The notes under the pieces: generated by a model
The model's database searches: none
What the model was told of the DNA's origin: nothing
The model's input: the letters and a program-made list of their open reading frames with translations, nothing else
Translations under genes and position numbers: made by a program
Assembly: GCF_900129875.1 (NCBI RefSeq)
Contig: NZ_FQXC01000010.1
Location: 1 to 55,690, forward strand
Source: Marivita hallyeonensis
GTDB lineage: Bacteria; Pseudomonadota; Alphaproteobacteria; Rhodobacterales; Rhodobacteraceae
Direction: 5' to 3'
DNA length: 55,690 nt
Shown: piece by piece, positions 1,236 through 48,196 of the stretch
How the letters are laid out: each line of letters starts with the position of its first letter
Position numbering within the stretch: position 1 is the stretch's first letter

Positions 1236-1249
1236 TTTGGTATACCAAA
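1236..1249. promoter_or_regulatory. Operator 1: TGGTATACCA palindrome between the Ldh_2 gene and the pentonate/otn operon
   Basis: A 14-base perfect palindrome (TTTGGTATACCAAA) lies 30 bases upstream of the leftward Ldh_2 start and 67 bases upstream of the rightward DapA-family start. It shares its ten-base core with six other intergenic sites in this window. It is the presumed binding site of the GntR/FCD regulator encoded at 40683. Confidence 0.85.
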
Positions 1250-1316
1250 TCGGCGCGAATGTGCTAGCCAAGTCACCGCGCCCTGCGCCAAGAAGACCAT
1301 CTGTGGAGGTTGCCCC

Positions 1317-2228
1317 ATGACTGCCTATTCCGGCATCTGGCCCGTCGCGCCTACGCCGTTTCACGACGATGGCAGCGTCGACCATGACGGGATGACACGC
1401 GTGCTCGATTGCATGATCGACCAGGGCGTTGACGGGATTTGCGTGCTGGCGAACTTCTCGGAACAGTTCCTGATTTCCGACGAAGAGCGTGAACGCCTGA
1501 CGCGCCTGTCGGTCGAACACATCGCGGGGCGCGTGCCGGTGATCGTCACGATCAGCCATTTCGCCACGCAGATCGCAGTCGAGCGTGCGCGTTTTGCCAA
1601 ATCGCTCGGCGCGGATGTGGTGATGATGATGCCGCCCTATCACGGCGCGCTGCTCAAAGGTACGGCAGAGCAAACCTTCGCGCAATTTCAGGCGGTTGGA
1701 GAGGTCGGTATCCCGATCATGATCCAAGACGCGCCGCTCTCAGGTGTCGATCTTCCTGTGCCGCTCCTCGTGCGGATGGCGCGCGAAATCGAGATGGTGA
1801 AGCTCTTCAAGATCGAATGCCCGCAAACCGCCGCCAAGCTGCGCGCACTGATCGCCGAAGGCGGGGATGCCATCGAAGGTCCGTTCGACGGGGAAGAAGC
1901 CATCACCCTGCTCGCCGATCTCGAAGCGGGGGCAACCGGGTCGATGACCAGCGCCCTGATCCCCGACCAGATCAAGCCGGTCCTCACCCATTTCGCTGCC
2001 GGTGATCTTGCACAGGCGGAGGCCGCCTATGCCCGCGTCTTGCCCGCCATCAACCACGAAAACCGCCAATGCGGCTTCCGCGCCGCAAAGGCTGCCATGG
2101 TCGAGGGCGGTGTGATCACATCCGACTTCTGCCGCCATCCAATCCCGCCGTTACATCCCGACACCCGCGCAGCACTTCTGCGCCTGATCCGCCCGCTTGA
2201 CCCGGTGGTTCTGCGTTGGGGCCGTTGA
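1317..2228 (+). CDS. DapA-family 2-keto-3-deoxypentonate dehydratase (L-arabinonate-type)
   Basis: A 303-residue class I aldolase/dehydratase of the dihydrodipicolinate synthase family. The Schiff-base lysine is about K165 (LFKIE) and the conserved tyrosine about Y108 (PPYHG). The substrate loop reads ANFSEQ, not the GTTGE type of true DapA. As I recall it, this resembles L-2-keto-3-deoxyarabonate dehydratases, which form 2-oxoglutarate semialdehyde. The next gene encodes the enzyme that would oxidise that product, which supports the assignment. The start has GGAGG eight bases upstream. It is the first gene of a six-gene operon reaching 7425, driven from the promoter at operator 1. A KDG aldolase or 5-dehydro-4-deoxyglucarate dehydratase is a possible alternative. 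Confidence 0.8.
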   Translation: MTAYSGIWPVAPTPFHDDGSVDHDGMTRVLDCMIDQGVDGICVLANFSEQFLISDEERERLTRLSVEHIAGRVPVIVTISHFATQIAVERARFAKSLGADVVMMMPPYHGALLKGTAEQTFAQFQAVGEVGIPIMIQDAPLSGVDLPVPLLVRMAREIEMVKLFKIECPQTAAKLRALIAEGGDAIEGPFDGEEAITLLADLEAGATGSMTSALIPDQIKPVLTHFAAGDLAQAEAAYARVLPAINHENRQCGFRAAKAAMVEGGVITSDFCRHPIPPLHPDTRAALLRLIRPLDPVVLRWGR

Positions 2229-2318
2229 GGCTTCGAAACCGCCGGATCTACAGGACCCCGACCGCACTCTACGTCTGACGCGATGCGCCGGACGACCAAG
2301 ACCAAAAGGACTTTGACC

Positions 2319-3836
2319 ATGAGCTTCACGCCCCACGGGAAACACCTCATCGCCGGGAACTGGACCGCGAGCGACAAAACCTTCACCTCCATGCCCGCGC
2401 ACGGCACCGCGCACAGCTTCAGCGCCGGAACAGCCAATCATGTTCACGCCGCGTGCGAAGCGGCGGAAGAGGCCTTCTGGAGCTACGGCTATTCCCCCCG
2501 CGAGGCCCGCGCGACATTTCTGAACGCCATCGCTGACGAGATCGACGCCCGTGCCGAGGCCATCACCCAGATCGGGACCGAAGAAACCGGACTGCCCGAG
2601 GCGCGCCTTCAAGGTGAACGCGGACGCACGGTGGGGCAGTTGCGCCTGTTTGCGACGCATATCCAAAAGGGCGCCTACCTCGACCGGCGTCACGATGAGG
2701 CGCTGCCCGATCGCACCCCCCTGCCCCGGCCCGATCTGAAGATGGTGCAACGCCCAATCGGCCCGGTCGCCGTGTTCGGCGCATCGAACTTCCCGCTGGC
2801 CTTCTCGACCGCCGGTGGTGATACGGCAAGTGCGTTGGCGGCGGGCTGCCCGGTGGTGGTCAAAGGTCACCCGGCGCATCCCAGTACGGGCGAGATCATC
2901 GCAGAGGCCATCCATGCCGCCATCCAGAAGGAAGGTGTGCACCCCGGCGTGTTCTCCTTCCTCCAGAGCAACGGCACCGATGTCGGCACCGCGCTGGTGC
3001 AGCATCCGCGGATCAAGGCCGTCGGCTTCACTGGATCGCTGCGCGGTGGACGGGCGCTTTACGATCTCTGCGCGGCACGGCCGGAACCCATCCCGTTCTT
3101 CGGTGAATTGGGATCGGTGAACCCCGTCTTCATCCTGCCGAACGCGCTGTCCAACCGGGCCGAGGCGATTGCCAAAGGCTGGGCCGGATCGCTGACAATG
3201 GGCGCGGGGCAGTTCTGCACCAACCCGGGTATCCTCGTGATGATCGACGACCCTGCCATCGACGGCTTCATCAGCGCCGCGAAAGACGCCCTGACCGAGG
3301 TGCAACCACAGACGATGCTGACCGAAGGGATCGCCGAGGCGTTCCGCGCGGGTCAGTCGGACGTGGCAGAGGCTCCGGTGAAAGAGGTGATCGCGTCCCC
3401 CTGCGAGGGTCGCGCCGCCGCGCCGTTTGTCTATGACACCGATGGGGACACGTTCCTCGCCAACCCGTCTTTGCACCACGAGGTGTTCGGCCCGCTGGGC
3501 TTGATCGTCCGCGCCAGCGACGAAGACCAGATGGCCGACATCGCCCGCGCGCTGGAAGGGCAGCTTACCTGCACGCTCCATCTCGATGAGGCGGACGTCG
3601 CACTTGGCACCTGCATGATGCCGATTCTCGAACGCAAGGCGGGGCGCATCCTTGCCAACGGATTCCCGACCGGCGTCGAAGTCGCGGACGCGATGGTGCA
3701 CGGCGGCCCCTACCCTGCCTCGACCAATTTCGGCGCCACCTCGGTTGGCACGCTGGCGATCCGGCGCTTCCTGCGACCGGTCTGCTACCAGGATATCCCC
3801 GACGCGCTCTTGCCCGGCGATCTGACGGGCGGCTAA
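2319..3836 (+). CDS. 2-oxoglutarate semialdehyde dehydrogenase (NADP-type aldehyde dehydrogenase)
   Basis: A 505-residue aldehyde dehydrogenase of the alpha-ketoglutaric semialdehyde dehydrogenase group. The catalytic cysteine is about C300 in GAGQFCTNPG and the general-base glutamate about E263 in GELGSVNP. The Rossmann segment FGASNFPLAF and the VGFTGS loop are present. It would oxidise 2-oxoglutarate semialdehyde to 2-oxoglutarate, the last step of non-phosphorylating pentonate (Weimberg-type), glucarate and hydroxyproline routes. The ATG at 2319 has AAAGGA eight bases upstream; an upstream in-frame ATG at 2283 has no such site. It follows the dehydratase gene by 90 bases, which show no terminator. 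The FAH-fold dehydratase (16580) and the IlvD-type dehydratase (26463) could feed it as well. Confidence 0.88.
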   Translation: MSFTPHGKHLIAGNWTASDKTFTSMPAHGTAHSFSAGTANHVHAACEAAEEAFWSYGYSPREARATFLNAIADEIDARAEAITQIGTEETGLPEARLQGERGRTVGQLRLFATHIQKGAYLDRRHDEALPDRTPLPRPDLKMVQRPIGPVAVFGASNFPLAFSTAGGDTASALAAGCPVVVKGHPAHPSTGEIIAEAIHAAIQKEGVHPGVFSFLQSNGTDVGTALVQHPRIKAVGFTGSLRGGRALYDLCAARPEPIPFFGELGSVNPVFILPNALSNRAEAIAKGWAGSLTMGAGQFCTNPGILVMIDDPAIDGFISAAKDALTEVQPQTMLTEGIAEAFRAGQSDVAEAPVKEVIASPCEGRAAAPFVYDTDGDTFLANPSLHHEVFGPLGLIVRASDEDQMADIARALEGQLTCTLHLDEADVALGTCMMPILERKAGRILANGFPTGVEVADAMVHGGPYPASTNFGATSVGTLAIRRFLRPVCYQDIPDALLPGDLTGG

Positions 3837-3858
3837 ACTGACCATCGGGGGGAGCATT

Positions 3859-4755
3859 ATGACACAGCAGAAATTGGCGGCCATTGGCCTTGGTTCGATG
3901 GGTTACGGCATCGCGCAATCAGCTTTGCGCGGCGGGCACATGGTCTGGGGCGTTGACATCAACACCGACCAGATGGCACGTTTGGTGAACGAGGGCGGGC
4001 AGGACGGCCCCCTGCCCTTCGCGGACCTGGACAGCGTCATCGTCTGCGTCCTGAACGCGGCACAGACCGAGGCGGTGCTGTTCGGCGAAGACGGGATCGC
4101 ACCGAAACTGACCAACGGCGCGTCGATCCTGTCCTGCGCAACGGTCCCACCCGCCTTCGCCAAGGACATGGAGGCGCGCTGCCAAGCCCTTGGCCTGCAC
4201 TATCTCGACGCGCCGATCTCGGGCGGGTCGGTCAAGGCGGCGAACGGACAATTGTCGATCATGGCCTCCGGCACGCCCGACGCGTTCACCGCGCTCCGCC
4301 CGGTGCTCGACAGCATTGCCGAGACGGTGTTCGAACTGGGTGACAGCGCTGGCGCGGGCAGTGCGATGAAGGCGGTGAACCAGCTTCTGGCAGGCGTTCA
4401 TATCGCGACAATGGCCGAGGCACTGACCTTTGGCATGACGCAGGGCGTGACCCCGGACAAGTTCGTAGACGTGATCAGCAAATGCGCCGGGAGCAGCTGG
4501 ATGCTGGAAAACCGCGCGCCGCATATCGTGGCGGGCGATTACACGCCGCACAGCTCGGTCAATATCTGGCCGAAGGATCTGGGCATCGTGCTCGATATCG
4601 CGAAGGACGCGAAATTCAGCGCGCCAATCACCGCCGCGGCGCTTCAGCAATTCGTGGCCGCCGCCGGGATGGGGCTGGGCCACGAGGACGACGCAGCGGT
4701 CGCCAAGGTCTATGCGCGTAACGCAGGCTTGACCTTGCCCGGGGAAGATACATGA
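3859..4755 (+). CDS. ltnD: L-threonate dehydrogenase, 3-hydroxyisobutyrate dehydrogenase family
   Basis: A 298-residue beta-hydroxyacid dehydrogenase. It has the N-terminal dinucleotide-binding loop GLGSMG (about residues 10-15), the substrate motif DAPISGG (about 116-122) and a catalytic lysine in SAMKAVNQ (about K173). LtnD oxidises L-threonate to 2-oxo-tetronate. The assignment rests on sequence resemblance and on the next three genes, which together form the known OtnK/OtnC/OtnI pathway. The start has GGGGGAG just upstream. Its stop overlaps the otnK start by four bases (ATGA), so the two are probably translationally coupled. A second, weaker LtnD-like gene is at 45334. Confidence 0.87.
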   Translation: MTQQKLAAIGLGSMGYGIAQSALRGGHMVWGVDINTDQMARLVNEGGQDGPLPFADLDSVIVCVLNAAQTEAVLFGEDGIAPKLTNGASILSCATVPPAFAKDMEARCQALGLHYLDAPISGGSVKAANGQLSIMASGTPDAFTALRPVLDSIAETVFELGDSAGAGSAMKAVNQLLAGVHIATMAEALTFGMTQGVTPDKFVDVISKCAGSSWMLENRAPHIVAGDYTPHSSVNIWPKDLGIVLDIAKDAKFSAPITAAALQQFVAAAGMGLGHEDDAAVAKVYARNAGLTLPGEDT

Positions 4756-6023
4756 CCACCCTGCTCGGCTGCATTGCCGACGATTTCACCGGCGCGACGG
4801 ATCTGGCCGGGCTGCTGGCCCGCAGCGGTGTCCGCGTGTCACTTCGCATCGGCGTGCCGACCGAGCCGCCTGAGGAGACCAGCCCGTTCGAAGTGATCGC
4901 GCTCAAGTCCCGCACCGCGCCTGTGACAGAGGCAGTCGCGGAGACGCAGAAGGCGCTCGAATGGTTGCAAGCCTCTGGTGCAAAACGTTTTTTCTGGAAA
5001 TACTGCTCCACCTTCGACAGCACGGCGGAAGGCAATATCGGCCCGGTCGCGGAGGCGTTGATGAAGACGCTCGGGACCGGCCAAACGATCTACTGCCCCG
5101 CCTTCCCCGAAAACGGACGTGCGATCTTCATGGGGTATCTGTTCGTCGGACAGCAGCCTTTGGCGGAAAGCCCGATGAAGGATCATCCGCTCACGCCGAT
5201 GCGCGACAGCAACCTGATGCGGTTGTTGGAACCGCAGGTGACCAGACCCGTGGGCCTCGCCGACCGCCTGACGGTTGCGCGTGGCGTGGAGGCGTTGCGC
5301 GCGCGGCTTTCCGACTTGCAGGCCGGGGGGTATGCACATGTGGTCGTCGATGCGGTGGCTGACGACGATCTGCACATCATCGCCGAGGCGTGCCAGGACA
5401 TGCCCCTGATGACCGGCGGATCCGCGGTCGCGATGCCCCTGCCCCATCTCTACAAGGCGCAAGGACTGCTGCCCGAGGATGCGCCAAGCACGCCAAAGCC
5501 GGACATCCCGAAGCAGACGATCATCCTGTCCGGCAGTTGTTCCGCCATGACCAACGCGCAGGTCGCGCGCTACGTCGATACGGGCGCGCCGACGTTCCGG
5601 CTTGATCCGCTAGAGGTGGCGAAGACCGGCGCGCAACCGGCGCTGGACTGGCTTGCCGGGCAGAACCTTACCCAAGCCCCCCTCATCTACGCCACGGCGG
5701 ACCCGGCGTCGGTCAAGGCGGCGCAAGAGGCGCTTGGCACCGCAAAGGCGGGTGTGCTCATCGAAGACACGCTGGCCGCCTGCGCTGTCGCTGCGCGGGA
5801 CATGGGCGCGCGGCGGGTGATCGTAGCGGGGGGCGAGACATCCGGCGCGGTGACCAAGGCGCTTGGTGTAACGCAGCTCGACATCGGAGCCGAGATCGCA
5901 CCGGGCGTGCCGTGGACCTTCTGCACCTCGGACGGGCACACCCTCGCGCTGACCCTGAAATCCGGGAACTTCGGGGCTGAGACCTTCTTCACCGACGCGC
6001 AAGACAGGCTTGACGCGGCATGA
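4752..6023 (+). CDS. otnK: 3-oxo-tetronate 4-kinase (DUF1537 four-carbon acid sugar kinase)
   Basis: A 423-residue kinase of the former DUF1537 family. The N-terminal sugar-binding motif ADDFTGATDLAG (residues 9-20) is clear. The C-terminal nucleotide-binding half carries the glycine-rich GGETSGAV segment (about residue 365). The known reaction is ATP-dependent phosphorylation of 3-oxo-tetronate to 3-oxo-tetronate 4-phosphate in L-threonate and D-erythronate breakdown. It overlaps ltnD and otnC by four bases each, so the operon is tightly coupled. Its length is normal, and no lesion is visible. Confidence 0.92.
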   Translation: MTTLLGCIADDFTGATDLAGLLARSGVRVSLRIGVPTEPPEETSPFEVIALKSRTAPVTEAVAETQKALEWLQASGAKRFFWKYCSTFDSTAEGNIGPVAEALMKTLGTGQTIYCPAFPENGRAIFMGYLFVGQQPLAESPMKDHPLTPMRDSNLMRLLEPQVTRPVGLADRLTVARGVEALRARLSDLQAGGYAHVVVDAVADDDLHIIAEACQDMPLMTGGSAVAMPLPHLYKAQGLLPEDAPSTPKPDIPKQTIILSGSCSAMTNAQVARYVDTGAPTFRLDPLEVAKTGAQPALDWLAGQNLTQAPLIYATADPASVKAAQEALGTAKAGVLIEDTLAACAVAARDMGARRVIVAGGETSGAVTKALGVTQLDIGAEIAPGVPWTFCTSDGHTLALTLKSGNFGAETFFTDAQDRLDAA

Positions 6024-6670
6024 GCAGCGAGGCCCGACTGCGCGAACAGATCTGCCTGCTCGCCAAATCGATGTTCGACCGCGGGCTGACCGGTGGCAGC
6101 ACCGGCAACATATCGGCCCGGACCGATGATGGCGGGCTTCTGGTGAGCCCCACGGGCACCAGCTTCGGCAGGCTCGACCCCGGCAGGCTCAGCCGCTTTG
6201 ACGCGCAAGGTACGCTGATCGGCGGCGACAAACCGACCAAGGAAATGCCGCTGCATTCCGCCTTCTACGACACGCGCAGCACCGCCGGGGCCGTGGTGCA
6301 TCTGCACTCCTGCCATTCCGTCGCGCTGTCGATGATGCCGGATGTCGACGAGGACAACTTCCTGCCGCCGCTCACGCCCTACGGGATCATGAAGCTGGGC
6401 AAGGTGAAGCTCCTGCCGTTCTTCCTACCCGGCGATCCAGCGATGGGCGAAGCCGTGCGCGGGCTCGCAGGCAAGCGCAGTGCAGTAATGCTGGCCAATC
6501 ACGGGCCGGTTGTGGCGGGCAAGGATGTCGAGGCTGCGTGCAATGCGGTGGAAGAACTGGAAGACACGGCCCGGCTTGCGATGTTGACACGCGGCCTCAG
6601 CCCCCGCGCGTTGACCGACGATCAGGTGCGCGCGGTGGTGATGAAATTCGATGTGGAGTGGGACGTATGA
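6020..6670 (+). CDS. otnC: 3-oxo-tetronate 4-phosphate decarboxylase (class II aldolase fold)
   Basis: A 216-residue class II aldolase/adducin-family protein. It shows the GGSTGNIS loop near residue 25, the phosphate-contact segment SPTGTS, and the zinc-binding HLHSCHS cluster near residue 96. OtnC decarboxylates 3-oxo-tetronate 4-phosphate to dihydroxyacetone phosphate, delivering carbon to glycolysis. It overlaps otnK upstream and otnI downstream by four bases each. A fuculose- or ribulose-phosphate aldolase would share the fold, but the neighbours fix the assignment. Confidence 0.9.
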   Translation: MSSEARLREQICLLAKSMFDRGLTGGSTGNISARTDDGGLLVSPTGTSFGRLDPGRLSRFDAQGTLIGGDKPTKEMPLHSAFYDTRSTAGAVVHLHSCHSVALSMMPDVDEDNFLPPLTPYGIMKLGKVKLLPFFLPGDPAMGEAVRGLAGKRSAVMLANHGPVVAGKDVEAACNAVEELEDTARLAMLTRGLSPRALTDDQVRAVVMKFDVEWDV

Positions 6671-7425
6671 AATTCTCGGCCAACCTGGGCTTTCTTTGGC
6701 AGGACCGCCCGCTGCCCGACGCCATCCGCGCCGCCAAAGCTGCCGGGTTCGACGCGGTCGAATGCCACTGGCCCTACGAAACACCCGCGGCCGAGGTTGC
6801 AGTTGCATTGAAAGAGACCGGGCTGCCGATGCTGGGTCTCAACACCCGTCGCGGCGATGTGGCCGGCGGGGAAAACGGGCTCTCCGCCCTGCCCGGCCGC
6901 GACGACGACGCGCGCTTGGCGATTGATGAAGCGGTTGCGTATGCCCAAGCCGTCACTGCGGACGCGATCCATTTGATGGCCGGGTTCGCGGACGGGACAG
7001 ACGCGCATGACACCTTCGTCCGCAACCTTCGGTACGCCTGCGACGCCGCGCCGGATCGGACGATCCTGATCGAACCGCTGAACCACTACGATGCGCCGGG
7101 CTATTTTCTGAAAACCTCCGGGCAAGCGATCCGCATCATCGAGGAGGTCGGCGCGTCGAACCTCAGACTGATGTTCGACTGCTATCACATCCAGCTCATG
7201 GAGGGCGATCTGACCCATCGGCTTCAGCGTCTGAAGCCGCAGATCGGTCACATCCAGTTCGCCTCGGTCCCGGATCGCGGCGCGCCGGATCGGGGTGAGG
7301 TGAATTACGGGCATGTCTTCGATGTGATCCGCGACATGGGGTACGACGCGCCGCTTGGGGCAGAGTACAAGCCCGGCGGTCCGACAGAGGACACGTTGGG
7401 CTGGCTGTCCATGATGCGGAGTTAA
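6667..7425 (+). CDS. otnI: 2-oxo-tetronate isomerase (hydroxypyruvate isomerase family)
   Basis: A 252-residue TIM-barrel xylose-isomerase-like protein of the hydroxypyruvate isomerase family. Metal-ligand candidates are in IEPLN (about residue 139), DCYH (about 177) and the late GAEYKP segment. OtnI converts 2-oxo-tetronate to 3-oxo-tetronate, linking LtnD or DenD to OtnK. The ATG at 6667 overlaps the otnC stop by four bases, which decides the start over a longer in-frame reading from 6538. It is the last gene of the operon. Its stop codon (7423-7425) lies inside the first parS palindrome of the replicon, and no terminator is visible between it and repA. Confidence 0.9.
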   Translation: MKFSANLGFLWQDRPLPDAIRAAKAAGFDAVECHWPYETPAAEVAVALKETGLPMLGLNTRRGDVAGGENGLSALPGRDDDARLAIDEAVAYAQAVTADAIHLMAGFADGTDAHDTFVRNLRYACDAAPDRTILIEPLNHYDAPGYFLKTSGQAIRIIEEVGASNLRLMFDCYHIQLMEGDLTHRLQRLKPQIGHIQFASVPDRGAPDRGEVNYGHVFDVIRDMGYDAPLGAEYKPGGPTEDTLGWLSMMRS

Positions 7426-7580: not shown

Positions 7581-8762
7581 ATGTTCCAGACGGCCCCGAT
7601 AGAGGCAACGTCGCAGACCGAGCTTACACGCGAGATGGCCGCACGTCTAGAGGTGGCGTTGTCAACGCATCTGGAGCAGGCGTACGCCCCGGACAACCGC
7701 AAATATTTGAGACTATTCAGCGCTACAGAGACCGCTGACCTACTGGGCGTGACCGGCCAGTTCCTGCGCAAGTGCCACAGCGACGGCACCCTGCCCGAGC
7801 CCGACGTGAACCGGAACGGACGCCGGTTCTATTCTGGCGAAGAGCTGTTCGCCATTCGCCGCGCGCTTGAGGAAACGGCGCGGACGCCGGGCAAGTACGT
7901 TCCGGGACGGCGCGGCGACGACAAGCTGCAAGTGGTTCAGTTGATGAACTTCAAGGGCGGGTCGGCCAAGTCGACCTCTGCCATCCATTTGTGTCACTAT
8001 CTCGCCCTGCAGGGCTATCGCGTGCTGGCCATCGACCTGGACCCGCAGGGCAGTCTGACCGGGTTCTGTGGCATCCAGCCTGAGATCGAATTCGAAGGGA
8101 CGTCGATCTACGACGCACTACGCTACGAAGACCCGCTGCCCATGTCGGAGGTGATCGTCGACACCTATTTCCCGGGACTGGCGCTTGCCCCAGCAAAGCT
8201 GGTTCTGAGCGAGTTCGAGACGGAAACCGCCGTCTATGCGGGCCGTGGGATTTCGTTTTTCGAGCGGTTGAAACATGCCATCGACACGGTGGACGACCGT
8301 TTTGACGTTGTGATCATCGACAGCCCCCCTGCCCTTGGGTTCCTGACGCTCACTGGGTTATATGCCGCGACCTCGGTCCTGGTGCCGATGACGCCTTCGA
8401 TGCTCGACCTCGCGTCGACGCAACAGTTCATCGAGATGACCTCGGCCTATCTTGGTGTGATCGAGGAAACCGGCGTTCGGTTAAGTCACGATTTCTTTTC
8501 CTTTCTCATCGCAAGAGATGACCCAAGCGATATTCCAAGCCAGCAGATCGTGACGCTCATGCGTGCTCTGTTTCAGGATCGCGTGGTGCCATCGACCTCG
8601 TTGCGCAGCACGGCCGTTGCCGACGCGGCGATGCTCAAGATGTCGATCTACGAGGTGGCGCGCGCCGACATGATCCGGTCGACCTATGACCGGGCGCGCG
8701 ACAGCATGGATGCGGTTGGGGCGGACGTATCGCGGATGATTCAATCTGCATGGGGACGATAG
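7581..8762 (+). CDS. repA: RepA, ParA-type partition ATPase of the repABC replicon
   Basis: A 393-residue RepA. The N-terminal part carries a helix-turn-helix-like segment (TADLLGVTGQFLRKC, about residues 51-65) for self-repression. The deviant Walker A box FKGGSAKST is at about 124-132, with Walker A' DLDPQGS and Walker B VVIIDSPPALG further on. RepA segregates plasmid copies with RepB and parS, and normally represses the operon promoter. The start is the ATG preceded by AGGAAATAGG. RepB follows four bases after the stop. The order parS-repA-repB-ctRNA-repC is the classic repABC arrangement of alphaproteobacteria. Confidence 0.95.
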   Translation: MFQTAPIEATSQTELTREMAARLEVALSTHLEQAYAPDNRKYLRLFSATETADLLGVTGQFLRKCHSDGTLPEPDVNRNGRRFYSGEELFAIRRALEETARTPGKYVPGRRGDDKLQVVQLMNFKGGSAKSTSAIHLCHYLALQGYRVLAIDLDPQGSLTGFCGIQPEIEFEGTSIYDALRYEDPLPMSEVIVDTYFPGLALAPAKLVLSEFETETAVYAGRGISFFERLKHAIDTVDDRFDVVIIDSPPALGFLTLTGLYAATSVLVPMTPSMLDLASTQQFIEMTSAYLGVIEETGVRLSHDFFSFLIARDDPSDIPSQQIVTLMRALFQDRVVPSTSLRSTAVADAAMLKMSIYEVARADMIRSTYDRARDSMDAVGADVSRMIQSAWGR

Positions 8763-8766
8763 ACCG

Positions 8767-9732
8767 ATGGCAATGGGAAAGAACAAGACGGGCATCATGG
8801 CTGCGATCACCGCGGCCAACGAGGTGTCGAAAACCGGCGGGCAGGGCAGGGCGCAACCGTCTCTGCCGAAAGGCACCATCGGATCGGTGCGCGCCGGGCT
8901 TGGCGGCATTCAGGATGTCGATACGGACAAGATCCTGTCTTGGGGGCCGCAAGACCGGCTTGAGTTAACAGCTGTTAACAGCGGCGACGAGGATGTGCAG
9001 GACCTGCGCGATTCCATCCGCCTGTCAGGGCAGCAAGTGCCAGTGCTGCTCCGCCCGTCGCCCAATCGGGATGGGCATTTCGAAGTGATCTATGGCCGCC
9101 GCCGCATTCTGGCCTGCCACCAGATCGGCATCCCGGTCAAAGCTTTGATCCGGACGCTGGACGACTCCGATGCGCTGATGGCGAAAGGGCTTGAGAATGC
9201 GAGCCGCGCCGATCTGAGCTATTACGAGCGCGCCCGATTTGCGAAGGCAAGCCTAGCGATGGGCCACGACCGCGCCGAGGTGATCCAGGCGCTGGCGATC
9301 AGCAAGAACACACTGTCGCAGATGGAGCGAGTCACCCGGCTTGTACCCGATGCGGTCGGCGACGCCATCGGGGCCGCCCCGAAATCCGGGCGACCGAAAT
9401 GGATGGCACTTGCCGCAGCCTTTGAGGCCAAGAGCATGACCGACCGCCAGGCGTCTGCGATCTTCGAAGCGCTGGACGACGATGCACCCTCGGACGTGCG
9501 GCTTGAAGCGCTTCTGGATCACATCGCGAAACGTGGCCGACAGGAGCGTGCGCCCGCCAAGGAACGCAGCCCGGTCTCGGGAGTGCAGATCAAAAGCACA
9601 GGCTCTGCCGTCGCGCTGTCTGTCCGCAAAACCGGCGACACAGCGGCTTTCGCGGAATGGCTGGATGGCCAGCTGGACACCATGATCGAGACTGCCTTTG
9701 TGAGGTTCGAAAAAGAAACCCGCAAGGAGTAG
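8767..9732 (+). CDS. repB: RepB, ParB-type centromere-binding protein
   Basis: A 321-residue ParB/Spo0J-family protein. The ParB N-terminal domain contains YGRRRILACHQIG (about residues 111-123), matching the GxRR box. The central helix-turn-helix AEVIQALAISKNTLSQMERV (about 171-190) should bind parS. It partitions the replicon together with RepA. A second start (the Met two codons on) is possible. The gene contains the second parS palindrome in its own coding sequence at 8964-8979, encoding Glu-Leu-Thr-Ala-Val-Asn-Ser. Confidence 0.95.
   Translation: MAMGKNKTGIMAAITAANEVSKTGGQGRAQPSLPKGTIGSVRAGLGGIQDVDTDKILSWGPQDRLELTAVNSGDEDVQDLRDSIRLSGQQVPVLLRPSPNRDGHFEVIYGRRRILACHQIGIPVKALIRTLDDSDALMAKGLENASRADLSYYERARFAKASLAMGHDRAEVIQALAISKNTLSQMERVTRLVPDAVGDAIGAAPKSGRPKWMALAAAFEAKSMTDRQASAIFEALDDDAPSDVRLEALLDHIAKRGRQERAPAKERSPVSGVQIKSTGSAVALSVRKTGDTAAFAEWLDGQLDTMIETAFVRFEKETRKE
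8964..8979. other. parS-like partition site 2, inside repB
   Basis: A second exact copy of GTTAACAGCTGTTAAC, in the 5' third of repB. Two identical 16-base palindromes flanking repA are strong evidence that these are the RepB binding sites of this replicon. The sequence type could define its incompatibility group. Confidence 0.88.
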
Positions 9733-9788
9733 GGGCCGCACATCGCTGCGGTGAAACGAGGACACGAGCAACAAGAGGAGACAGGCAC

Positions 9789-9818
9789 AAAAAACCCCCG
9801 AAACCGAGGCTTCGAGGG
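9789..9818 (-). terminator. Rho-independent terminator of the ctRNA
   Basis: Read on the minus strand, CCCTCGAA pairs with TTCGGGGG (one G-U pair) around an eight-base loop and is followed by six T residues. The plus strand can form the matching hairpin in the repC leader, which is expected for antisense control of RepC. Confidence 0.8.
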
Positions 9819-9849
9819 CTGCAGCGCAAAAAGCGCAACATGTTTTGAC
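9789..9849 (-). ncRNA. Counter-transcribed RNA (incA-type ctRNA) between repB and repC
   Basis: On the minus strand a promoter (TTGTTC, 17 bases, TATGAA) is followed by about 60 bases and a Rho-independent terminator. This is the position, orientation and size of the small antisense RNA that limits RepC synthesis in repABC plasmids. The transcription start near 9849 is inferred from the -10 box. The opposite (plus) strand is the repC mRNA leader. The whole 9733-9937 gap is accounted for by this element. Confidence 0.82.
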
Positions 9850-9855
9850 ACAACT

Positions 9856-9884
9856 TTCATAGCAGCTCGCGAATCACAGAACAA
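9856..9884 (-). promoter_or_regulatory. Promoter of the ctRNA
   Basis: On the minus strand, TTGTTC at 9884-9879 and TATGAA at 9861-9856 are separated by exactly 17 bases. The start of transcription is expected about seven bases further on, near 9849. Confidence 0.7.
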
Positions 9885-9937
9885 CGAAAAACGCCTCTGG
9901 GTGAACAGCTTTTTTGTGCGCAAAGGCTATGAAAAAT

Positions 9938-39450: not shown

Positions 39451-39474
39451 AGCGGGCCCAATGGCGGGCCCGCT
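39451..39474 (-). promoter_or_regulatory. Stem-loop between dctP and dctQ
   Basis: A perfect nine-base stem (AGCGGGCCC/GGGCCCGCT) with a six-base loop lies in the 96-base gap after dctP. No T run follows. Such stem-loops after binding-protein genes are thought to protect the upstream mRNA or partly stop transcription. This gives more binding protein than permease. Confidence 0.75.
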
Positions 39475-39502
39475 GCAGCCTTTAGTCAAAGGCGGCGCAG
39501 GC

Positions 39503-40584: not shown

Positions 40585-40600
40585 GGATGGTATACCATCC
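40585..40600. promoter_or_regulatory. Operator 5: TGGTATACCA upstream of the TRAP operon
   Basis: A 16-base perfect palindrome (GGATGGTATACCATCC), 69 bases before dctP. It is 56 bases from operator 6 (centre to centre), close to five helical turns, so a regulator could bridge the two. Confidence 0.87.
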
Positions 40601-40640
40601 TGAAACGACGCTAGCGAAAGCCATGTCGACAATCAATATT

Positions 40641-40656
40641 TTTTGGTATACCAAAA
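40641..40656. promoter_or_regulatory. Operator 6: TGGTATACCA upstream of the gntR gene
   Basis: A 16-base perfect palindrome (TTTTGGTATACCAAAA), only 27 bases before the regulator's start codon. It is in the right place to block transcription, so the regulator probably represses itself. Confidence 0.87.
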
Positions 40657-40682: not shown

Positions 40683-41384
40683 GTGGTCGGTTCGGACGAC
40701 GGAAATTTTGATGTTGATACCGATGCTAGCCTGCCCGAACGCATCGCCGCGCAGCTTCGTCGCGATATCCTGAACGGGAAATTCGCGCCGGGCACCACGA
40801 TCAAGGAACGCGACAACGCAGCCGAGATGGGCGTCAGCCGAACCCCGATGCGCGAGGCGATTCGTATTCTCGCCAAAGAGGGGCTTCTGGTTCTGCGCCC
40901 CGCCCGCAGCCCCATCGTGTCGGAACCGTCGTTCAAACAGATTGCAGATAACATAGAGGTGCTGACGGCGCTTGAACTGTTGTCAGCCGACCTGGCCTGT
41001 CAAACCGCGACCGACGCGCAAATCAACGAAATCGTTCTGGCCCAGGACAGGTTCGCGTCGCAATACGATGTCCTTGAGCCGGTCGAGGTGTTCGAGTTGG
41101 ACATGCAGGTGCATCTCGCGATTGCACGCGCTTCGAATAACGACGTGCTGATTGAAACGCATCGGAGCATCCTCGGCCGCATGTGGCGCGCCCGTTTCCT
41201 GTCGGCGCGCCGACAGGACAGCCGGGATCGCGTGCTGCGCCAGCACGCATTGATCGTTGAAGGATTGAAACGGCGCGACGCGGACGCGGTGCGCGGGATC
41301 CTGTCCGACCATCTCGAACACATCCTCATCAAGGTGCGCGAGTATTTTGAACACGAAGAAGCGGAAACCGCCGAAGCGTCGTAA
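40683..41384 (+). CDS. GntR-family regulator, FadR/FCD subfamily (probable master regulator)
   Basis: A 233-residue regulator. The N-terminal winged helix covers about residues 17-80, with the recognition region VSRTPMREAIRILAKEGLL. The C-terminal FCD domain has metal-ligand candidates in DMQVHLAIA, RQHALIVEG and SDHLEHIL. FCD-type GntR proteins bind TGGT-ACCA-like palindromes and release them on binding organic or sugar acids. The start is a GTG with AGGG seven bases upstream. Seven copies of TGGTATACCA in the window, one in front of this gene, point to it as their binder. It is the only transcription factor gene seen in the catabolic part. Confidence 0.9.
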   Translation: MVGSDDGNFDVDTDASLPERIAAQLRRDILNGKFAPGTTIKERDNAAEMGVSRTPMREAIRILAKEGLLVLRPARSPIVSEPSFKQIADNIEVLTALELLSADLACQTATDAQINEIVLAQDRFASQYDVLEPVEVFELDMQVHLAIARASNNDVLIETHRSILGRMWRARFLSARRQDSRDRVLRQHALIVEGLKRRDADAVRGILSDHLEHILIKVREYFEHEEAETAEAS

Positions 41385-41422: not shown

Positions 41423-42271
41423 ATGAAACTCTTGCGATTTGGTCCCAAGGGCCAGGAAAAACCCGGCATTCTGGATGCGGATGGACATGTGCGAGACCTG
41501 TCCGACCACGTGACCGATTTCGCAGGAGCGACCGTGTCGCTCGAAGCGCTCGACACGTTGCGGTCCGTGGACGTGGCTGCCCTGCCACTGGTGTCCGAGC
41601 CGGGGCGCATCGGAAGCTGCCTCGCCGCGGTGCCGAACTTTTTCTGCATCGGCCTCAACTATGCCAAACACGCAGAGGAAACCGGGGCCGAACCGCCGAA
41701 AGAGCCGATCCTCTTCTCCAAGGCCACGTCGGCCCTGTCCGGTCCGTTCGATCCGGTGATCATCCCACGCGGGTCGGTCAAAGGTGACTGGGAGGTCGAG
41801 CTCGGCGTCGTGATCGGCCGGACCGCGCTTTACGTCAGCGAGGACGACGCGCTGGACTACGTGGCGGGCTATTGCACGATCAACGACGTTTCCGAGCGGG
41901 AGTTTCAGATCGAAAAGGGCGGCCAGTGGATGAAGGGCAAATCCGCGCCGACATTTGGCCCGACAGGCCCCTACCTTGTGACGGCCGATGAGGTGCCTGA
42001 CCCGCAGAATCTACGCGTAACTCTGACCCTCAACGGAGAGACGGTGCAGGACTCCAACACTGACGACATGATCTTCACCGTGCGTGAAATCGTGTCCTAC
42101 ATGAGCCAGTTCATGGAGCTGCAACCCGGCGATATCATCGCCACCGGCACGCCCTCTGGCGTCGGCATGGGCATGAAACCACAGCGCTTCCTCAAACCCG
42201 GAGACGTGATGGAGGTCGAGGTCGAAGGGCTGGGCCGTCAGCGTCAGGTGGCAGAGGCGGCAGAAATCTAA
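41423..42271 (+). CDS. FAH-family 2,4-diketo-3-deoxy acid hydrolase-like protein
   Basis: A 282-residue fumarylacetoacetase-fold protein. It has IGLNYAKHAEETG (about residues 75-87), the metal ligands in DWEVELGVVIG and the GDIIATGTPSGVG signature. It resembles the 2,4-diketo-3-deoxy-L-fuconate/rhamnonate hydrolases and ureidoglycolate lyase-like proteins. The known hydrolases cleave a 2,4-diketo acid to pyruvate plus lactate or glycolate. The SDR at 30720 could supply its substrate. GGAAGG lies six bases before the ATG, 38 bases after gntR, so the two probably share operator 6. Confidence 0.78.
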   Translation: MKLLRFGPKGQEKPGILDADGHVRDLSDHVTDFAGATVSLEALDTLRSVDVAALPLVSEPGRIGSCLAAVPNFFCIGLNYAKHAEETGAEPPKEPILFSKATSALSGPFDPVIIPRGSVKGDWEVELGVVIGRTALYVSEDDALDYVAGYCTINDVSEREFQIEKGGQWMKGKSAPTFGPTGPYLVTADEVPDPQNLRVTLTLNGETVQDSNTDDMIFTVREIVSYMSQFMELQPGDIIATGTPSGVGMGMKPQRFLKPGDVMEVEVEGLGRQRQVAEAAEI

Positions 42272-44578: not shown

Positions 44579-45337
44579 TTAATGAATCAAAGACCCGCCA
44601 TTCACATCAACCTCTGACCCGGTGACGTAAGCCGACAGATCCGACGCCAAAAACAAAGCGCAGCCCGCCACGTCTTTCGCTTCCCCGGCGCGGCCCATCG
44701 GGATGCCATCCAGCACCATCTGCCGCATCTCGGGTGTCAGTTTGCCCGCCGTGATGTCGGTGTCGATGAAGCCCGGGCAGATCGCATTGGCCCGCACGTT
44801 GTCCGGGGCGAGTTCCCGCGCCATGGCTTTGGTCAGGCCGAGGATACCCGCTTTTGCGGCCGAGTAATGCGGCCCGCCGAAGATGCCACCGCCGCGTTGC
44901 GCAGACACAGAAGACATGTTGACAATGCTTCCCGATTTGCGCGCGCGCATGTGCGGGATCAGAGCTTGCGACATGTACAATGTCCCGCGCAGATTGACAT
45001 CGAGCACGGCATCGTAGTTTTCCGGCGCGATCTCCATGAGCTTCAGCGGCTGGGTGATGCCCGCGTTGTTTACCAATATATCCACCGCGCCAAACTTCGC
45101 CTCCACATGGCTCGCCAGTTTCAGACACGCTGTCCGATCGGTCACGTCACAGGCAAGTCCGATATGCCCGTCGCCGCTCAGATCATTCGCCGCCGCCTGT
45201 GCCGCGTCACCGTCCAGATCGAGGATCGCCACACGGCAACCGTGTTCGGCAAACAGAAGCGCCGTCGCCTTGCCCAGACCCCGTGCGCTTGCGGCGCCGG
45301 TGATGATGGCGGTCTTGCCGGTGAGAAGAGCTGTCAT
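44579..45337 (-). CDS. Short-chain dehydrogenase/reductase
   Basis: A 252-residue classical SDR with TGAASARGLG (residues 12-21), NNAG, a serine in NMSSVSAQ and the catalytic YSAAK. AAGGA lies six bases before the ATG. It overlaps the LtnD-like gene by four bases. It is the last of four genes read leftward from operator 7. A dehydrogenase for a sugar or polyol is likely, but the substrate is unknown. Confidence 0.8.
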   Translation of the reverse strand: MTALLTGKTAIITGAASARGLGKATALLFAEHGCRVAILDLDGDAAQAAANDLSGDGHIGLACDVTDRTACLKLASHVEAKFGAVDILVNNAGITQPLKLMEIAPENYDAVLDVNLRGTLYMSQALIPHMRARKSGSIVNMSSVSAQRGGGIFGGPHYSAAKAGILGLTKAMARELAPDNVRANAICPGFIDTDITAGKLTPEMRQMVLDGIPMGRAGEAKDVAGCALFLASDLSAYVTGSEVDVNGGSLIH

Positions 45338-46224
45338 GGTGTGTCCTTCAGTTTTTGTCCCATCAACGCCTCGTAGGCGCGGATGACGCGGCTGTCGTCT
45401 TGTCGCCCGTGTCCCATGGCCGAAGCGGCGGTAAACATCTGGTACGCGGCGGCGGACAGGGGCAGGGGCACACCCGCGTCTTTGCCGGTCTGCAGGACCA
45501 ATCCGAGATCCTTGATGAAGATGTCAACGCTCGACGCAACCGGCGCATCGTCCTGCATCATCCGTGGCCCCCGGTCGGCGAGCATCCACGAATTGCCCGC
45601 CGCATTAGTGACGATGTCGTAAAGCGTCTGCGGATCGCACCCGGCTTTTGCGCCAAGCGCCATCAGTTCAGCCGCCACCGCCAGATGCACACCCGCTGCG
45701 AGTTGGTGTACCACCTTGTAGGTCGCGGCCTGTCCGGACTCATCGCCCAAGCGGTGCACGATGCCCGACACTGCATCGAGAACGGGCCCGGCGCGATCGA
45801 ACGCTTGCGCAGGACCGGACGCCATCACGGTCAGTGTCCCGGCTTCCGCCCCGACTTGACCACCCGAGACCGGCGCGTCCAGCAGAACATGCCCCGCCTC
45901 GGCCACCCGCGCCGCGATCTCTCGCGCATCCGATGGCGCAACTGTCGAAGACAGCATGACCGTGGCACCCGGCGCGAGGGCAGCCATAAGGCCTGTATCG
46001 AACAGAACCGCGCGCACCTGATCGGCGTTCACCACCATGATGAGAAGAAGGTCGGCCTCTTGCGCCGCTTCCTCCGCCGTATCGCATGGCACGCCACCCG
46101 CATCGCTGAAACGCTGGCGTGCCTCCGGCGACAGGTCGTACCCTTTCAGATCGATCCCCGCCTTCAGGATATTCCGCGCCATACCAAGGCCCATGGCACC
46201 CAGCCCGATGATTGAAGTGCTCAT
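45334..46224 (-). CDS. LtnD-like 3-hydroxyisobutyrate dehydrogenase-family oxidoreductase (paralog 4)
   Basis: A 296-residue beta-hydroxyacid dehydrogenase with the GLGAMGLGMA loop, DAPVSGGQVGA, and the lysine helix AATYKVVHQLAAGVH. Among the four paralogs here it is the one most like LtnD (compare NQLLAGVH, and GNSWM with GSSWM). It may oxidise threonate or a close branched analogue. It overlaps the transketolase C-terminal subunit gene by four bases. Confidence 0.8.
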   Translation of the reverse strand: MSTSIIGLGAMGLGMARNILKAGIDLKGYDLSPEARQRFSDAGGVPCDTAEEAAQEADLLLIMVVNADQVRAVLFDTGLMAALAPGATVMLSSTVAPSDAREIAARVAEAGHVLLDAPVSGGQVGAEAGTLTVMASGPAQAFDRAGPVLDAVSGIVHRLGDESGQAATYKVVHQLAAGVHLAVAAELMALGAKAGCDPQTLYDIVTNAAGNSWMLADRGPRMMQDDAPVASSVDIFIKDLGLVLQTGKDAGVPLPLSAAAYQMFTAASAMGHGRQDDSRVIRAYEALMGQKLKDTP

Positions 46225-47267
46225 TGCGCCACCCAGGATTTAACCGACTGACAGACTGCATCGACCGTCAGCCCATATTGTTGGTGTAGTGTCGGAAGCG
46301 CCCCCGCATCCAGAAACTCGTCCGGCAGGCCGATCTGGCGGAACGGCACATGCACACCGGCGCGCATCAGGGTCGCTGCAACCGCTTCGCCCAGACCACC
46401 CGTGACCGAATGGTTCTCCGCCGTCACAACCAGCCGCCCACCCTTCGCGGCTTCGGCTGTGATCGTCTCTGCGTCCAGCGGCTTGATCGTCGGCGAATGC
46501 AGCACGGCGCAGGACACGCCATCTTTGGCAAGCGCCTTTGCCGCGTCCAGAACCCGCATCGTCATGAAGCCGGACGCGATGAACAAAACATCCGATCCAT
46601 CATGGATCATCTGCGCCTTGCCGAGCTTGAACTGGTAATCGTAAGCGCCCAGCACGTTCGGCACTTGGCCGCGCAAAAGGCGCATGTAGACCGGGCCGGG
46701 ATGGTCGGCGATTACCTTCGTCGCCTGCATCGTATCGATGGCATCGCAGGGGTCCAGAACCGTCAGGTTCGGCATTCCGCGCATGATCGCCAGATCCTCG
46801 GTCGCCTGATGGCTGGGACCGTAGCCCGTGGTCAGGCCGGGCAGGGCGCAGCAGATTTTGACGGGCAGGTTTTCCTCGGCAATCGCCATGCAGATGAAGT
46901 CATAGGCCCGACGCGACGCGAAGACGGCGTAGGTCGTTGCAAAGGGCGTGAACCCTTCGCGCGCCAAGCCCGCGGCGGCGGAAATCATCACCTGCTCTGC
47001 CATGCCCATCTGGTAGAAGCGGTCGGGATACGCATTCGCGAAAACATGCAGGTCGGTGTATTTCGACAGGTCTGCGGACAGCCCGACAATATCGTCTCGG
47101 GTCTTGGCCAACTCGATCAGCGCGTTTCCGAATGGCGCTGCAATGGTGTCGCGGCCTTCGGAATCGAGCGAGGCGATCATAGCGGATGTCGCGACCTTGC
47201 TCTCTGGTACGGTGCGTGGCGTGTATTTCGACTTGCGGCGCGAATGGGGTGGGAAATGCTCGGTCAT
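46221..47267 (-). CDS. Transketolase-like protein, C-terminal subunit
   Basis: A 348-residue protein with the transketolase pyrimidine-binding domain (SADLSKYTDLHVFANAYPDRF, MGMAEQVMISAAAGLA, near residues 70-120) and the transketolase_C domain. It is the second half of a split, two-gene transketolase. The first half is encoded immediately upstream with a four-base overlap. Split transketolases of acid- and branched-sugar clusters, such as the AptA/AptB apulose-4-phosphate enzyme, have this form. The substrate here is inferred to differ from that of the full-length enzyme at 11335. Confidence 0.87.
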   Translation of the reverse strand: MTEHFPPHSRRKSKYTPRTVPESKVATSAMIASLDSEGRDTIAAPFGNALIELAKTRDDIVGLSADLSKYTDLHVFANAYPDRFYQMGMAEQVMISAAAGLAREGFTPFATTYAVFASRRAYDFICMAIAEENLPVKICCALPGLTTGYGPSHQATEDLAIMRGMPNLTVLDPCDAIDTMQATKVIADHPGPVYMRLLRGQVPNVLGAYDYQFKLGKAQMIHDGSDVLFIASGFMTMRVLDAAKALAKDGVSCAVLHSPTIKPLDAETITAEAAKGGRLVVTAENHSVTGGLGEAVAATLMRAGVHVPFRQIGLPDEFLDAGALPTLHQQYGLTVDAVCQSVKSWVAQ

Positions 47268-48115
47268 ACGGGCTTGCCCTCGTCCAGAATGGCCAAGGCC
47301 TTGGCCCACTCCTCGGGCTCGACACGCACGAAATGCGCCATCTCGCGCTCTTCGAGGAAGGGCACGCCCTTGCACATCTTCGTACGGCAGATGATGACGC
47401 GCGGTTTCGCTTCTTTGAGATGACGCGCGGTATCGAACGCGCTGACCAATGCGTCGAGGTCGTTGCCATCGACCTCCTGCGCATGCCAGCCGAACGCCTC
47501 CCATTGCGGCGCTTGCGGGCCGCTTGCCAAGGCATCCGTCGTCTTGCCATCGGCCTGCTGGTCGTTGAAATCGACCAAGCAGATCAGGTTGTCGAGCTTC
47601 CACTGCACCGCCGACATCACCGCTTCCCAGGTCGATCCTTCGCCAAGCTCTCCATCCGACATGAGGTTGTAGACAAAGGCCGGATTGCCCTTCCGCTTCA
47701 GACCCATCGCAGCGCCGACCGCAATGCCAAGGCCGTGGCCCAAAGACCCGCCCGTGATCTCCATTCCCGGCGTGTAGGCGGCCATGCCGGACATGGGCAT
47801 GCGCGAGTCATCCATGCCGTAGGTGGGAATCTCGCCTTCGGGCAAGACACCCGCCTCAATCAGCGCCGAATACAAAGCAATCGCATAATGGCCGATGGAC
47901 AGGTAGAACCGGTCGCGCCCCTCCCATTCGGGATCATTCGGCCGATAGGTCAGGGCGTGGAAATAGCTGACGGCCAGAAGATCGGCCGCGCCAAGCGCCT
48001 GACCGATATAGCCCTGACCCTGCACCTCGCCCATGAGCAGCGCATTGCGCCGGATTGCCCAGGCACGTTGCGCGAGACTCACATTGGGCCGCGATACCGC
48101 CGCTGCATCCGTCAC
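47264..48115 (-). CDS. Transketolase-like protein, N-terminal (TPP-binding) subunit
   Basis: A 283-residue protein with the thiamine diphosphate-binding half: SIGHYAIALYSALIEAG, GLGIAVGAAMGLKRKG, and SDGELGEG leading to DFNDQQADG. The start is a GTG with GGGGAGGAG upstream; longer in-frame readings would run through operator 7 and into the divergent gene. It is the first of four genes read leftward (split transketolase, LtnD-like, SDR). Confidence 0.87.
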   Translation of the reverse strand: MTDAAAVSRPNVSLAQRAWAIRRNALLMGEVQGQGYIGQALGAADLLAVSYFHALTYRPNDPEWEGRDRFYLSIGHYAIALYSALIEAGVLPEGEIPTYGMDDSRMPMSGMAAYTPGMEITGGSLGHGLGIAVGAAMGLKRKGNPAFVYNLMSDGELGEGSTWEAVMSAVQWKLDNLICLVDFNDQQADGKTTDALASGPQAPQWEAFGWHAQEVDGNDLDALVSAFDTARHLKEAKPRVIICRTKMCKGVPFLEEREMAHFVRVEPEEWAKALAILDEGKPV

Positions 48116-48186
48116 GCGCTCCTCCCCATCGTCCCCCTGTTTGCGCGGCAGGGAAGCACCACGCGCAGGTTTTGGCAATCTAAATT

Positions 48187-48196
48187 TGGTATACCA
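48187..48196. promoter_or_regulatory. Operator 7: TGGTATACCA between the split transketolase and DRL operons
   Basis: The exact ten-base core, in AAATT-TGGTATACCA-TTTCC context. It is 72 bases from the leftward start and 54 bases from the rightward start. Confidence 0.83.

Follow-up and report, generated by a model that had tools for sequence, protein, structure and literature searches.

The DNA analysed here, referred to as the window, is the whole of contig NZ_FQXC01000010.1 from Marivita hallyeonensis (Rhodobacteraceae; RefSeq assembly GCF_900129875.1), 55,690 nucleotides long. Its repA, repB and repC genes each exceed their NCBIfam cut-offs, which identifies the contig as all or part of a RepABC plasmid and bears out the plasmid label attached to it in an earlier sequence-only reading; its two ends do not overlap. 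Runs of catabolic genes diverge from six intergenic regions, namely ldh2/dhdps, tkt/2hadh, idnD/SDR, ORF162/ilvD, dctP/gntR and tktN/drl. Each region contains the ten-base palindrome TGGTATACCA, with two copies (O1 and O2) in dctP/gntR, where gntR encodes a GntR/FCD regulator (Table 1).

Table 1. Candidate operators, predicted target operons and other features of the window. Gene calls are our own, and start codons were picked by us from the listed codons; gaps are in bases from palindrome to likely start; fractions count relatives in which the exact motif precedes the homologous gene; paired scores are bits/cut-off.
Feature	Position	Strand	Remarks
Ldh_2-family dehydrogenase (ldh2), predicted single-gene target	138..1205	-	Pfam Ldh_2, 291 bits
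Candidate operator TGGTATACCA	1238..1247	.	Between ldh2 (-) and dhdps (+); gaps 32 and 69; DHDPS 1/6
Predicted six-gene target operon: DHDPS-family, ALDH-family, L-threonate dehydrogenase, 3-oxo-tetronate kinase, 3-oxo-tetronate 4-phosphate decarboxylase, OtnI-like isomerase	1317..7425	+	NCBIfam, Pfam; LtnD 413.6/350, OtnK 548.4/350, OtnC 295.6/250; OtnI below cut-off, 272.5/325
repA, repB, repC (plasmid replication and partition)	7581..11266	+	NCBIfam, above cut-offs; outside the regulon count
Transketolase (tkt), predicted single-gene target, start uncertain	11335..13302	-	NCBIfam TIGR00232, 684.4/682.25
Candidate operator	13365..13374	.	Between tkt (-) and 2hadh (+); gaps 62 (or 86, 104) and 30; 2HADH 5/12, Tkt 0/5
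D-isomer 2-hydroxyacid dehydrogenase (2hadh)	13405..14343	+	Pfam
Predicted six-gene target operon: idonate-5-dehydrogenase-like (idnD), LysE-family, GlcD-like, FAA hydrolase, D-erythronate dehydrogenase, MR/MLE dehydratase	14431..20694	-	NCBIfam, Pfam; DenD 392.4/325; IdnD-like below cut-off, 343/469
Candidate operator	20746..20755	.	Between idnD-like operon (-) and SDR operon (+); gaps 51 and 70; IdnD 12/12, SDR 13/13
Predicted three-gene target operon: SDR (gluconate-5-dehydrogenase-like), 3-hydroxyisobutyrate-dehydrogenase family, PhyH dioxygenase	20826..23411	+	
Predicted four-gene target operon: ORF162, AzlC, AzlD, RraA-like	24105..26349	-	RraA membership inferred from a 36-base gap
Candidate operator	26391..26400	.	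Between ORF162 operon (-) and ilvD operon (+); gaps 41 and 62; IlvD 15/15
Predicted target operon: IlvD/EDD dehydratase (PRK13017 subfamily), SDR	26463..29054	+	
Predicted eleven-gene target operon: TRAP DctP-DctQ-DctM, MR/MLE, PhyH, altronate/galactarate-dehydratase family, GFO/IDH, HIBDH family, SDR, EamA, metallophosphoesterase	29051..40516	-	
Candidate operator O1	40588..40597	.	Downstream of dctP -10; gap to dctP 71
Predicted dctP promoter TTGATT-N17-TAGCGT	40608..40636	-	Between O2 and O1
Candidate operator O2	40644..40653	.	Upstream of dctP -35; gap to gntR 29
GntR/FCD regulator (gntR), proposed repressor	40683..41384	+	Pfam GntR 57.7/27, FCD 83.8/24.3
FAA-hydrolase-family enzyme, predicted regulator operon	41423..42271	+	Follows gntR in many relatives
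Predicted four-gene target operon: transketolase N (tktN) and C halves, L-threonate-dehydrogenase family, SDR	44579..48115	-	LtnD2 362.1/350
Candidate operator	48187..48196	.	Between split transketolase operon (-) and drl-tctCBA (+); gaps 71 and 53; TktN 2/7, DRL 0/5
Predicted four-gene target operon: DRL-like oxidoreductase (drl), TctC-TctB-TctA tripartite tricarboxylate transporter	48250..52649	+	DRL matches PDB 3upl/3upy, E 5e-60

The sequence-only reading had listed the palindrome at seven positions, all intergenic, and had argued from its rarity; exact copies are present at all seven positions, each copy is intergenic, and dinucleotide-preserving shuffles of the window give a mean of 0.01 copies, with none of 100 shuffles reaching seven. 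A scan of the replicon and its relatives, proposed there as a check, found the motif before the same core operons in relatives and no further copy in the 4,189,955-base assembly (20 contigs), in which the reversed-pattern control occurs twice. The single one-mismatch copy in the window, at 45704, lies within a gene and is probably a chance occurrence. Five of the seven copies are flanked by A or T at all three positions on both sides, the copy at 13365 deviates once, and that at 40588 has G/C flanks that are themselves symmetric. Beyond about 16 bp from the palindrome the sequence differs from copy to copy, so the palindrome is not a repeat that has spread. The confinement of every copy to one RepABC plasmid would suit a mobile or plasmid-maintenance element (a repeat, parS-like site or insertion target), but the dissimilar flanks, the absence of any copy adjoining repABC, and the presence of the motif before the same operons on relatives' contigs of up to 1.7 Mb make such an origin extremely improbable. 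Among the literature matches listed (titles and abstracts, with subscription papers outside the scope), no bacterial operator with the letters TGGTATACCA appeared, the matching titles dealing with viruses, cell biology, plants, fungi and similar subjects, and no account of this regulon was found among those listed for UxuR/ExuR/FCD, sugar-acid and Rhodobacteraceae topics, a scope that also excludes RegPrecise.

Five copies had been credited with divergent neighbours, whereas all six regions prove to be divergent; the sixth was overlooked because ORF162 (25861-26349, minus strand), which faces ilvD, was not recognised. ORF162 encodes a cysteine-containing protein of 162 residues with no Pfam match, whose N-terminus resembles a signal peptide by eye. 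Homologues (30-72% identity) lie divergent from ilvD and at most 250 bases behind the motif in each of the 14 relatives where they were identified. O2 lies 29 bases from the regulator's GTG start, a small correction to the 27 given before. Taking each co-directional run as one transcript, we count about 45 genes behind the palindromes (1+6, 1+1, 6+3, 4+2, 11+2 and 4+4 in the order of the regions above), among them those for a TRAP transporter, a tripartite tricarboxylate transporter (TTT) and an EamA-family permease, in agreement with the two transporters and several acid-sugar pathways described earlier. A kinase gene at 52646, the sulfotransferase, DUF4214 and ParD-like genes, and repABC are not behind a palindrome.

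The protein encoded at 40683 has an N-terminal GntR winged helix-turn-helix and a C-terminal FCD domain, which places it in the FCD (FadR/VanR) subfamily. A structural model of the regulator (pLDDT 87.2) gave as its top Foldseek matches 9isw (AlkR/VanR), 4p9f (McbR) and 7u5q, followed by chains of Atu1419 (VanR), with E. coli FadR ranking lower (E 4.4e-7); the predicted fold is nearest to VanR-type structures. Across 28 aligned regulators Asp140, His144 and His188 are invariant and His210 nearly so, residues that may be the ligands of a metal site of the kind seen in the VanR group (Asp/Asn and three His). Glu42, Arg53, Thr54 and Arg57 are likewise invariant (28/28) and correspond to Glu34, Arg45, Thr46 and Arg49 of Atu1419, the offset of 8 being where the match begins; in Atu1419 these four residues contact DNA and Arg45 reads the guanine at position 3 (PMC7797058). 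The operator rule given for FCD proteins in PMC4494728 is a palindromic TKGT/ACMA with two or three bases between GT and AC, and TGGTATACCA has two. The regulator's wing, LRPxRSP, is also invariant among the 28 sequences at Leu71, Arg72, Pro73, Arg75, Ser76 and Pro77; in the genome's remaining FCD proteins this stretch is different, L009 coming nearest, in a comparison that left out one row (L013), apparently out of frame.

The regulator had been described as the only GntR/FCD gene, which holds for the plasmid; genome-wide it is one of 16 FCD matches. This raises the question of whether the sites are common to two or more regulators, a chromosomal FCD paralogue binding them as well, so that a network rather than one repressor would operate. 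Of 13 occurrences of TNGTATACNA in the genome, nine are symmetric: the seven copies of TGGTATACCA, together with TCGTATACGA and TTGTATACAA, each of which adjoins a different other FCD gene and shares the GTATAC core. Moreover, one relative (G168) encodes two regulator paralogues with motif copies near each, so other proteins may share the motif there, and 10 of 20 genomes without a regulator match still carry one to three copies. Against this, both TCGTATACGA and TTGTATACAA differ from TGGTATACCA in the base next to the core, none of the other 15 FCD genes has TGGTATACCA in its locus of roughly 3 kb, and only a single protein in the genome matches the regulator at E<=1e-40. The paralogues thus seem to own separate operators, which suggests that each FCD protein reads its own base beside a common GTATAC core, and we consider sharing of the TGGTATACCA sites quite unlikely. 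The perfect palindromes ATTTCGTATACGAAAT and TTCTTGTATACAAGAA, found beside the two FCD genes L014 and L008 of this genome, are candidate operators of sister regulators. A further palindrome beside O1, TTTGGTCTGACCAAA (40559-40575), was considered as an additional operator and set aside, with its core TGGTCNGACCA preceding the regulator at one locus out of 54; it has three-base FCD spacing and is perhaps the site of another FCD protein.

To place the palindrome in a wider context, we drew 295 genomes evenly from the family, 47 of which, the M. hallyeonensis genome included, contain a regulator match at E<=1e-40. Motif counts were taken in 20 of the 46 relatives with the regulator, in 11 further genomes reached through 11 of 27 named loci, and in 20 of the 248 genomes without a match. 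The exact palindrome occurs 3-12 times per genome in the first set (reversed control 0-6), 4-9 times in the second (0-5) and 0-3 times in the third (0-23). The median is 6 copies in the 32 genomes with the regulator, including this one, versus 0.5 in the 20 without it (Mann-Whitney p 1.4e-9, only indicative given selection by similarity and shared ancestry). In the 22 genomes with full site lists (11 of the 20 regulator-bearing relatives and all 11 named-locus genomes), 107 of 144 copies lie at most 60 kb from the regulator's sites, and in eight of these genomes all copies do. Among the 27 named loci, the regulator of Marivita sp. XM-24bin2 shows the greatest similarity (84%), and all six copies in that genome share a 36.9-kb contig with it.

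We then asked which genes the motif precedes, searching from 300 bases upstream to 60 inside each homologue of a window gene (at least 50% identity) in regions from 19 relatives that reached 0.4 to 43 kb per side of the regulator, so that targets further off are missed. With genes divided according to the window's own arrangement, the exact motif precedes 77 of 111 operon-head homologues versus 7 of 270 other genes, and among the seven there appear to be genes standing first in an operon of the relative concerned; allowing one mismatch leaves the upstream counts unchanged. The motif is found upstream of gntR in 17/19 cases and of dctP in 12/17, is present before every ilvD, SDR_20826 and idnD homologue, and falls away to none before tkt and drl (Table 1). 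Because divergent partners share a site and heads are then counted twice, we also counted each region once per genome, which gives 54/73 overall: 13/13 for idnD/SDR, 15/15 for ilvD and 18/19 for dctP/gntR, with 5/13 for tkt/2hadh, 2/7 for tktN/drl and 1/6 for ldh2/dhdps. Three regions therefore make up a conserved core, and conservation of the other three is partial or slight. No homologue of ldh2 or tctABC at 50% identity or above was found in the regions read from the 19 relatives.

These counts permit a narrower reading, in which the functional regulon consists of the core alone (gntR/dctP, ilvD/ORF162 and idnD/SDR) and the palindromes at 1238, 13365 and 48187 are of little weight, being recent or accessory. 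Their uneven conservation speaks for it, but all three are perfect ten-mers in intergenic DNA at 30-104 bases from starts, and homologues of LtnD, ALDH or MR/MLE genes that seem to head operons in relatives also bear the motif; we regard restriction to the core as unlikely. For the broader reading, in which a single regulator acts at all seven copies, the presence of the palindrome before the regulator and before the same targets elsewhere points to shared control of the core; this pattern is weak for dhdps and tktN and is lacking for tkt and drl.

Several further observations weigh against the broader reading. Among 57 regulator loci, reduced to 47 distinct ones by removing 10 duplicates, six have no motif within 300 bp even with up to two mismatches, and ten others have something other than an exact pair at 54-60 bp. 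One genome with a regulator match (G213) has no site in the 40 kb read and eight copies elsewhere, and in another (G259) the motif occurs three times, less often than its reversed control (six). In the relatives, 37 of the 144 copies lie away from the regulator; the copies in genomes without a regulator match and the two paralogues of G168 weigh in the same direction. The loci are also related, and the counts do not represent independent events.

The plasmid collection contains regulator relatives (E<=1e-40) on four records of 227-598 kb, all below 60% identity. On Loktanella plas1 the gntR-FAA pair is kept beside TRAP genes and an otn-like cluster, and on a Marivivens plasmid the neighbours of the relative are FAA and FAD-oxidase genes and glpK, the feature table, which is incomplete, listing no TRAP gene. 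A layout similar to that of the window is found in Marimonas lutisalis (G070), a cultured relative. The cluster is also carried by JAFKDC010000001.1 (L110), titled Enemella evansiae; the same contig appears in G002, grouped with the window's family, and the title looks wrong.

The arrangement of the palindromes around promoter-like elements offers an indication of how they may act. Of the 47 distinct regulator loci, 31 have exact pairs 54-60 apart (17 at 56), three have a one-mismatch second copy at 55, one has a pair spaced 23, five have one exact copy and one has one mismatched copy. All 31 exact-pair loci show, on the dctP strand, the order O2, 7 bp (8 once), TTGnnn, 17 bp (18 once), TAnnnT, 8-13 bp, O1. 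When the spacers are mononucleotide-shuffled, such a promoter arises anywhere in 2.3% and at a gap of 7 in 0.13%. The pair spacing is not correlated with how far O2 lies from the point at which the regulator match begins (r -0.09). Near-constant site spacing is taken in section 16 of PMC4494728 to mark a co-operative pair class rather than two separate sites, and by this reasoning the O1-O2 spacing fits a co-operative pair, the comparison being with the distance to the match start. The spacing hints at co-operation, for which Atu1419 offers the model of a tetramer that bridges two palindromes.

Promoter elements recur at the other core sites, counted over rows in which at least 60 bases separate the site from the far end of the stretch searched. 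In 15 of 17 rows the ilvD operator is preceded, at a distance of one or two bases, by a TTG hexamer, and 11 of 17 show A2 and T6 of a -10 element at 17 bp. TTGACA occurs on the idnD side of its operator in 12 of 14 rows, and the SDR side has TTGnnn-N16-TACCAT, with the -10 on the operator, in 13 of 14. The operator positions relative to these elements fit steric repression. An alternative is that the regulator is an activator or a dual regulator, with O2 recruiting polymerase from 7 bp upstream of the dctP -35 and O1 tuning the output. The fixed distance from O2 to the -35 (7 in 30/31 loci), while that from the -10 to O1 varies, could suit an activator and thus also counts against repression. 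However, the other operators occupy positions that would block polymerase, within the spacer, over the -10 or directly downstream of it, and the fixed distance may instead reflect an overlapping gntR promoter (TCGAC is kept in 25/31), so that we judge an activating or dual role improbable.

Taken together, the co-occurrence, the gene arrangement and the core conservation make it very probable that the GntR/FCD protein from 40683-41384 is a repressor that occupies all seven copies of TGGTATACCA as a dimer and silences twelve divergent operons with about 45 genes, its own operon included. One switch would then probably turn on some 45 plasmid genes together. In the proposed mechanism, a VanR-group-like dimer would sit on the perfect palindrome between the -35 and -10 of ilvD, over the -10 of SDR_20826 and just after the -10 of idnD and dctP. 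At dctP, O1 and O2, about 56 bp apart, would flank the promoter and close off the transporter operon from either side, and O2 would in addition obstruct the promoter of the regulator itself (autorepression); all operons would be freed at once when a sugar acid or pathway intermediate binds to the FCD domain. The sequence-only reading had likewise proposed one repressor, over about 40 genes. The single local regulator is well supported by co-occurrence, autoregulatory position and conservation, and the gene count rises to about 45, while direct binding and repression are what we infer from these patterns.

Among characterised systems, Atu1419 of Agrobacterium fabrum (VanR group, PF07729) comes close to this proposal; it binds the 10-bp palindrome ATGTATACAT and represses (PMC7797058). 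Like the regulator proposed here, it is an FCD repressor of a catabolic cluster that is autoregulated through a 10-bp palindrome with a GTATAC core, its operators lie on the -10 or between the -10 and -35, and it is a close fold match to our model, although for the window repression is a prediction from sequence. Atu1419 also differs on several points: the operator is ATGTATACAT rather than TGGTATACCA, three genes are repressed rather than about 45, the paired sites are 190 bp apart and looped by a tetramer rather than about 56 bp apart, and the proposed effector is a folate.

The palindrome core had also been likened to the operator of the hexuronate repressors UxuR and ExuR, which are GntR/FCD proteins. 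In E. coli, the gene content under these two repressors differs from that of the window. As an orthologue of either, the regulator was rejected, scoring 39.0 bits versus a cut-off of 442 for UxuR (NCBIfam NF007588) and 38.2 versus 396 for ExuR (NF008571). The likeness holds for the two-base spacing between GT and AC, which is that of UxuR-type sites, and fails for ExuR sites, which are three-base spaced (PMC4494728). The double-site divergons of the FadR subfamily described in its section 16 likewise have two sites at a near-constant distance between a regulator and a structural operon; here a conserved promoter lies between the sites in 31/31 exact pairs. In PMC5507952, Rhodobacteraceae UxuR and Halomonas GguR, both of the GntR family, are predicted to control enzymes and transporters for sugar acids together, the transporter under GguR being TctABC; joint control of this kind is what we propose for the window. 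The Rhodobacteraceae UxuR set described there differs in containing an ABC transporter and UxaC.

What we describe is best summarised as a local, autoregulated GntR/FCD regulon of unusual predicted breadth, with a core conserved in Rhodobacteraceae, that in this genome resides on a 55.7-kb plasmid and covers most of its catabolic cargo. Breadth was what the sequence-only reading had put forward as new; it is indeed unusual, but the core (ilvD, idnD/SDR and gntR/dctP) is motif-headed across genera and is not specific to the plasmid. Average regulon sizes of 4.4 to 7.6 genes per genome are given for the GntR-family regulators LldR, BioR, GlcC, HypR, FadR, PdhR, NagQ and HutC of Proteobacteria in the reconstruction of PMC5343134. 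Local GntR regulators usually hold a handful of genes, and about 45 under one would, if true, be an outlier. A more far-reaching version is possible but doubtful: a portable super-regulon, in which one repressor and an undegenerated operator unify the catabolic cargo of a plasmid (about 45 genes, several routes and two uptake systems) that is moved and induced as a unit, the switch being an operator-promoter-operator cassette on which two dimers, or one small-loop tetramer, clamp polymerase. In either form, the regulon joins dozens of proteins about which little is established (PhyH dioxygenases, DRL-like, split transketolase, ORF162 and AzlCD among them) in a Rhodobacteraceae unit that can be tested as a whole, and one screen for inducers could help to link many of these to their substrates.

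With respect to gene content, L-threonate dehydrogenase (two genes), 3-oxo-tetronate kinase, 3-oxo-tetronate 4-phosphate decarboxylase, D-erythronate dehydrogenase and transketolase exceed their NCBIfam cut-offs. Matches below cut-off, and so at family level only, are the idonate-5-dehydrogenase-like, galactarate-dehydratase-like, 2,4-didehydro-3-deoxy-L-rhamnonate-hydrolase-like and KDG-kinase-like proteins. For the C4 acids the acid-sugar label is well founded, and it is plausible for the remaining genes. Two transketolases are encoded on the plasmid, one whole (11335-13302, minus strand) and one split into two genes (46221-48115, minus strand), each behind a palindrome; the halves of the latter have general transketolase/DXS-type NCBIfam matches only, all below cut-off. 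The DRL-family oxidoreductase (48250-49584, plus strand) is related to PDB 3upl/3upy, has no NCBIfam match at E<=1e-20, and is followed by TctCBA. The combination of a split transketolase and a DRL-like gene is reminiscent of apiose/apionate routes, but the NCBIfam results for these genes leave that assignment tentative. A ParD-like antitoxin gene and a short neighbour of no assigned family (23442-24048, minus strand) form a possible plasmid-maintenance pair.

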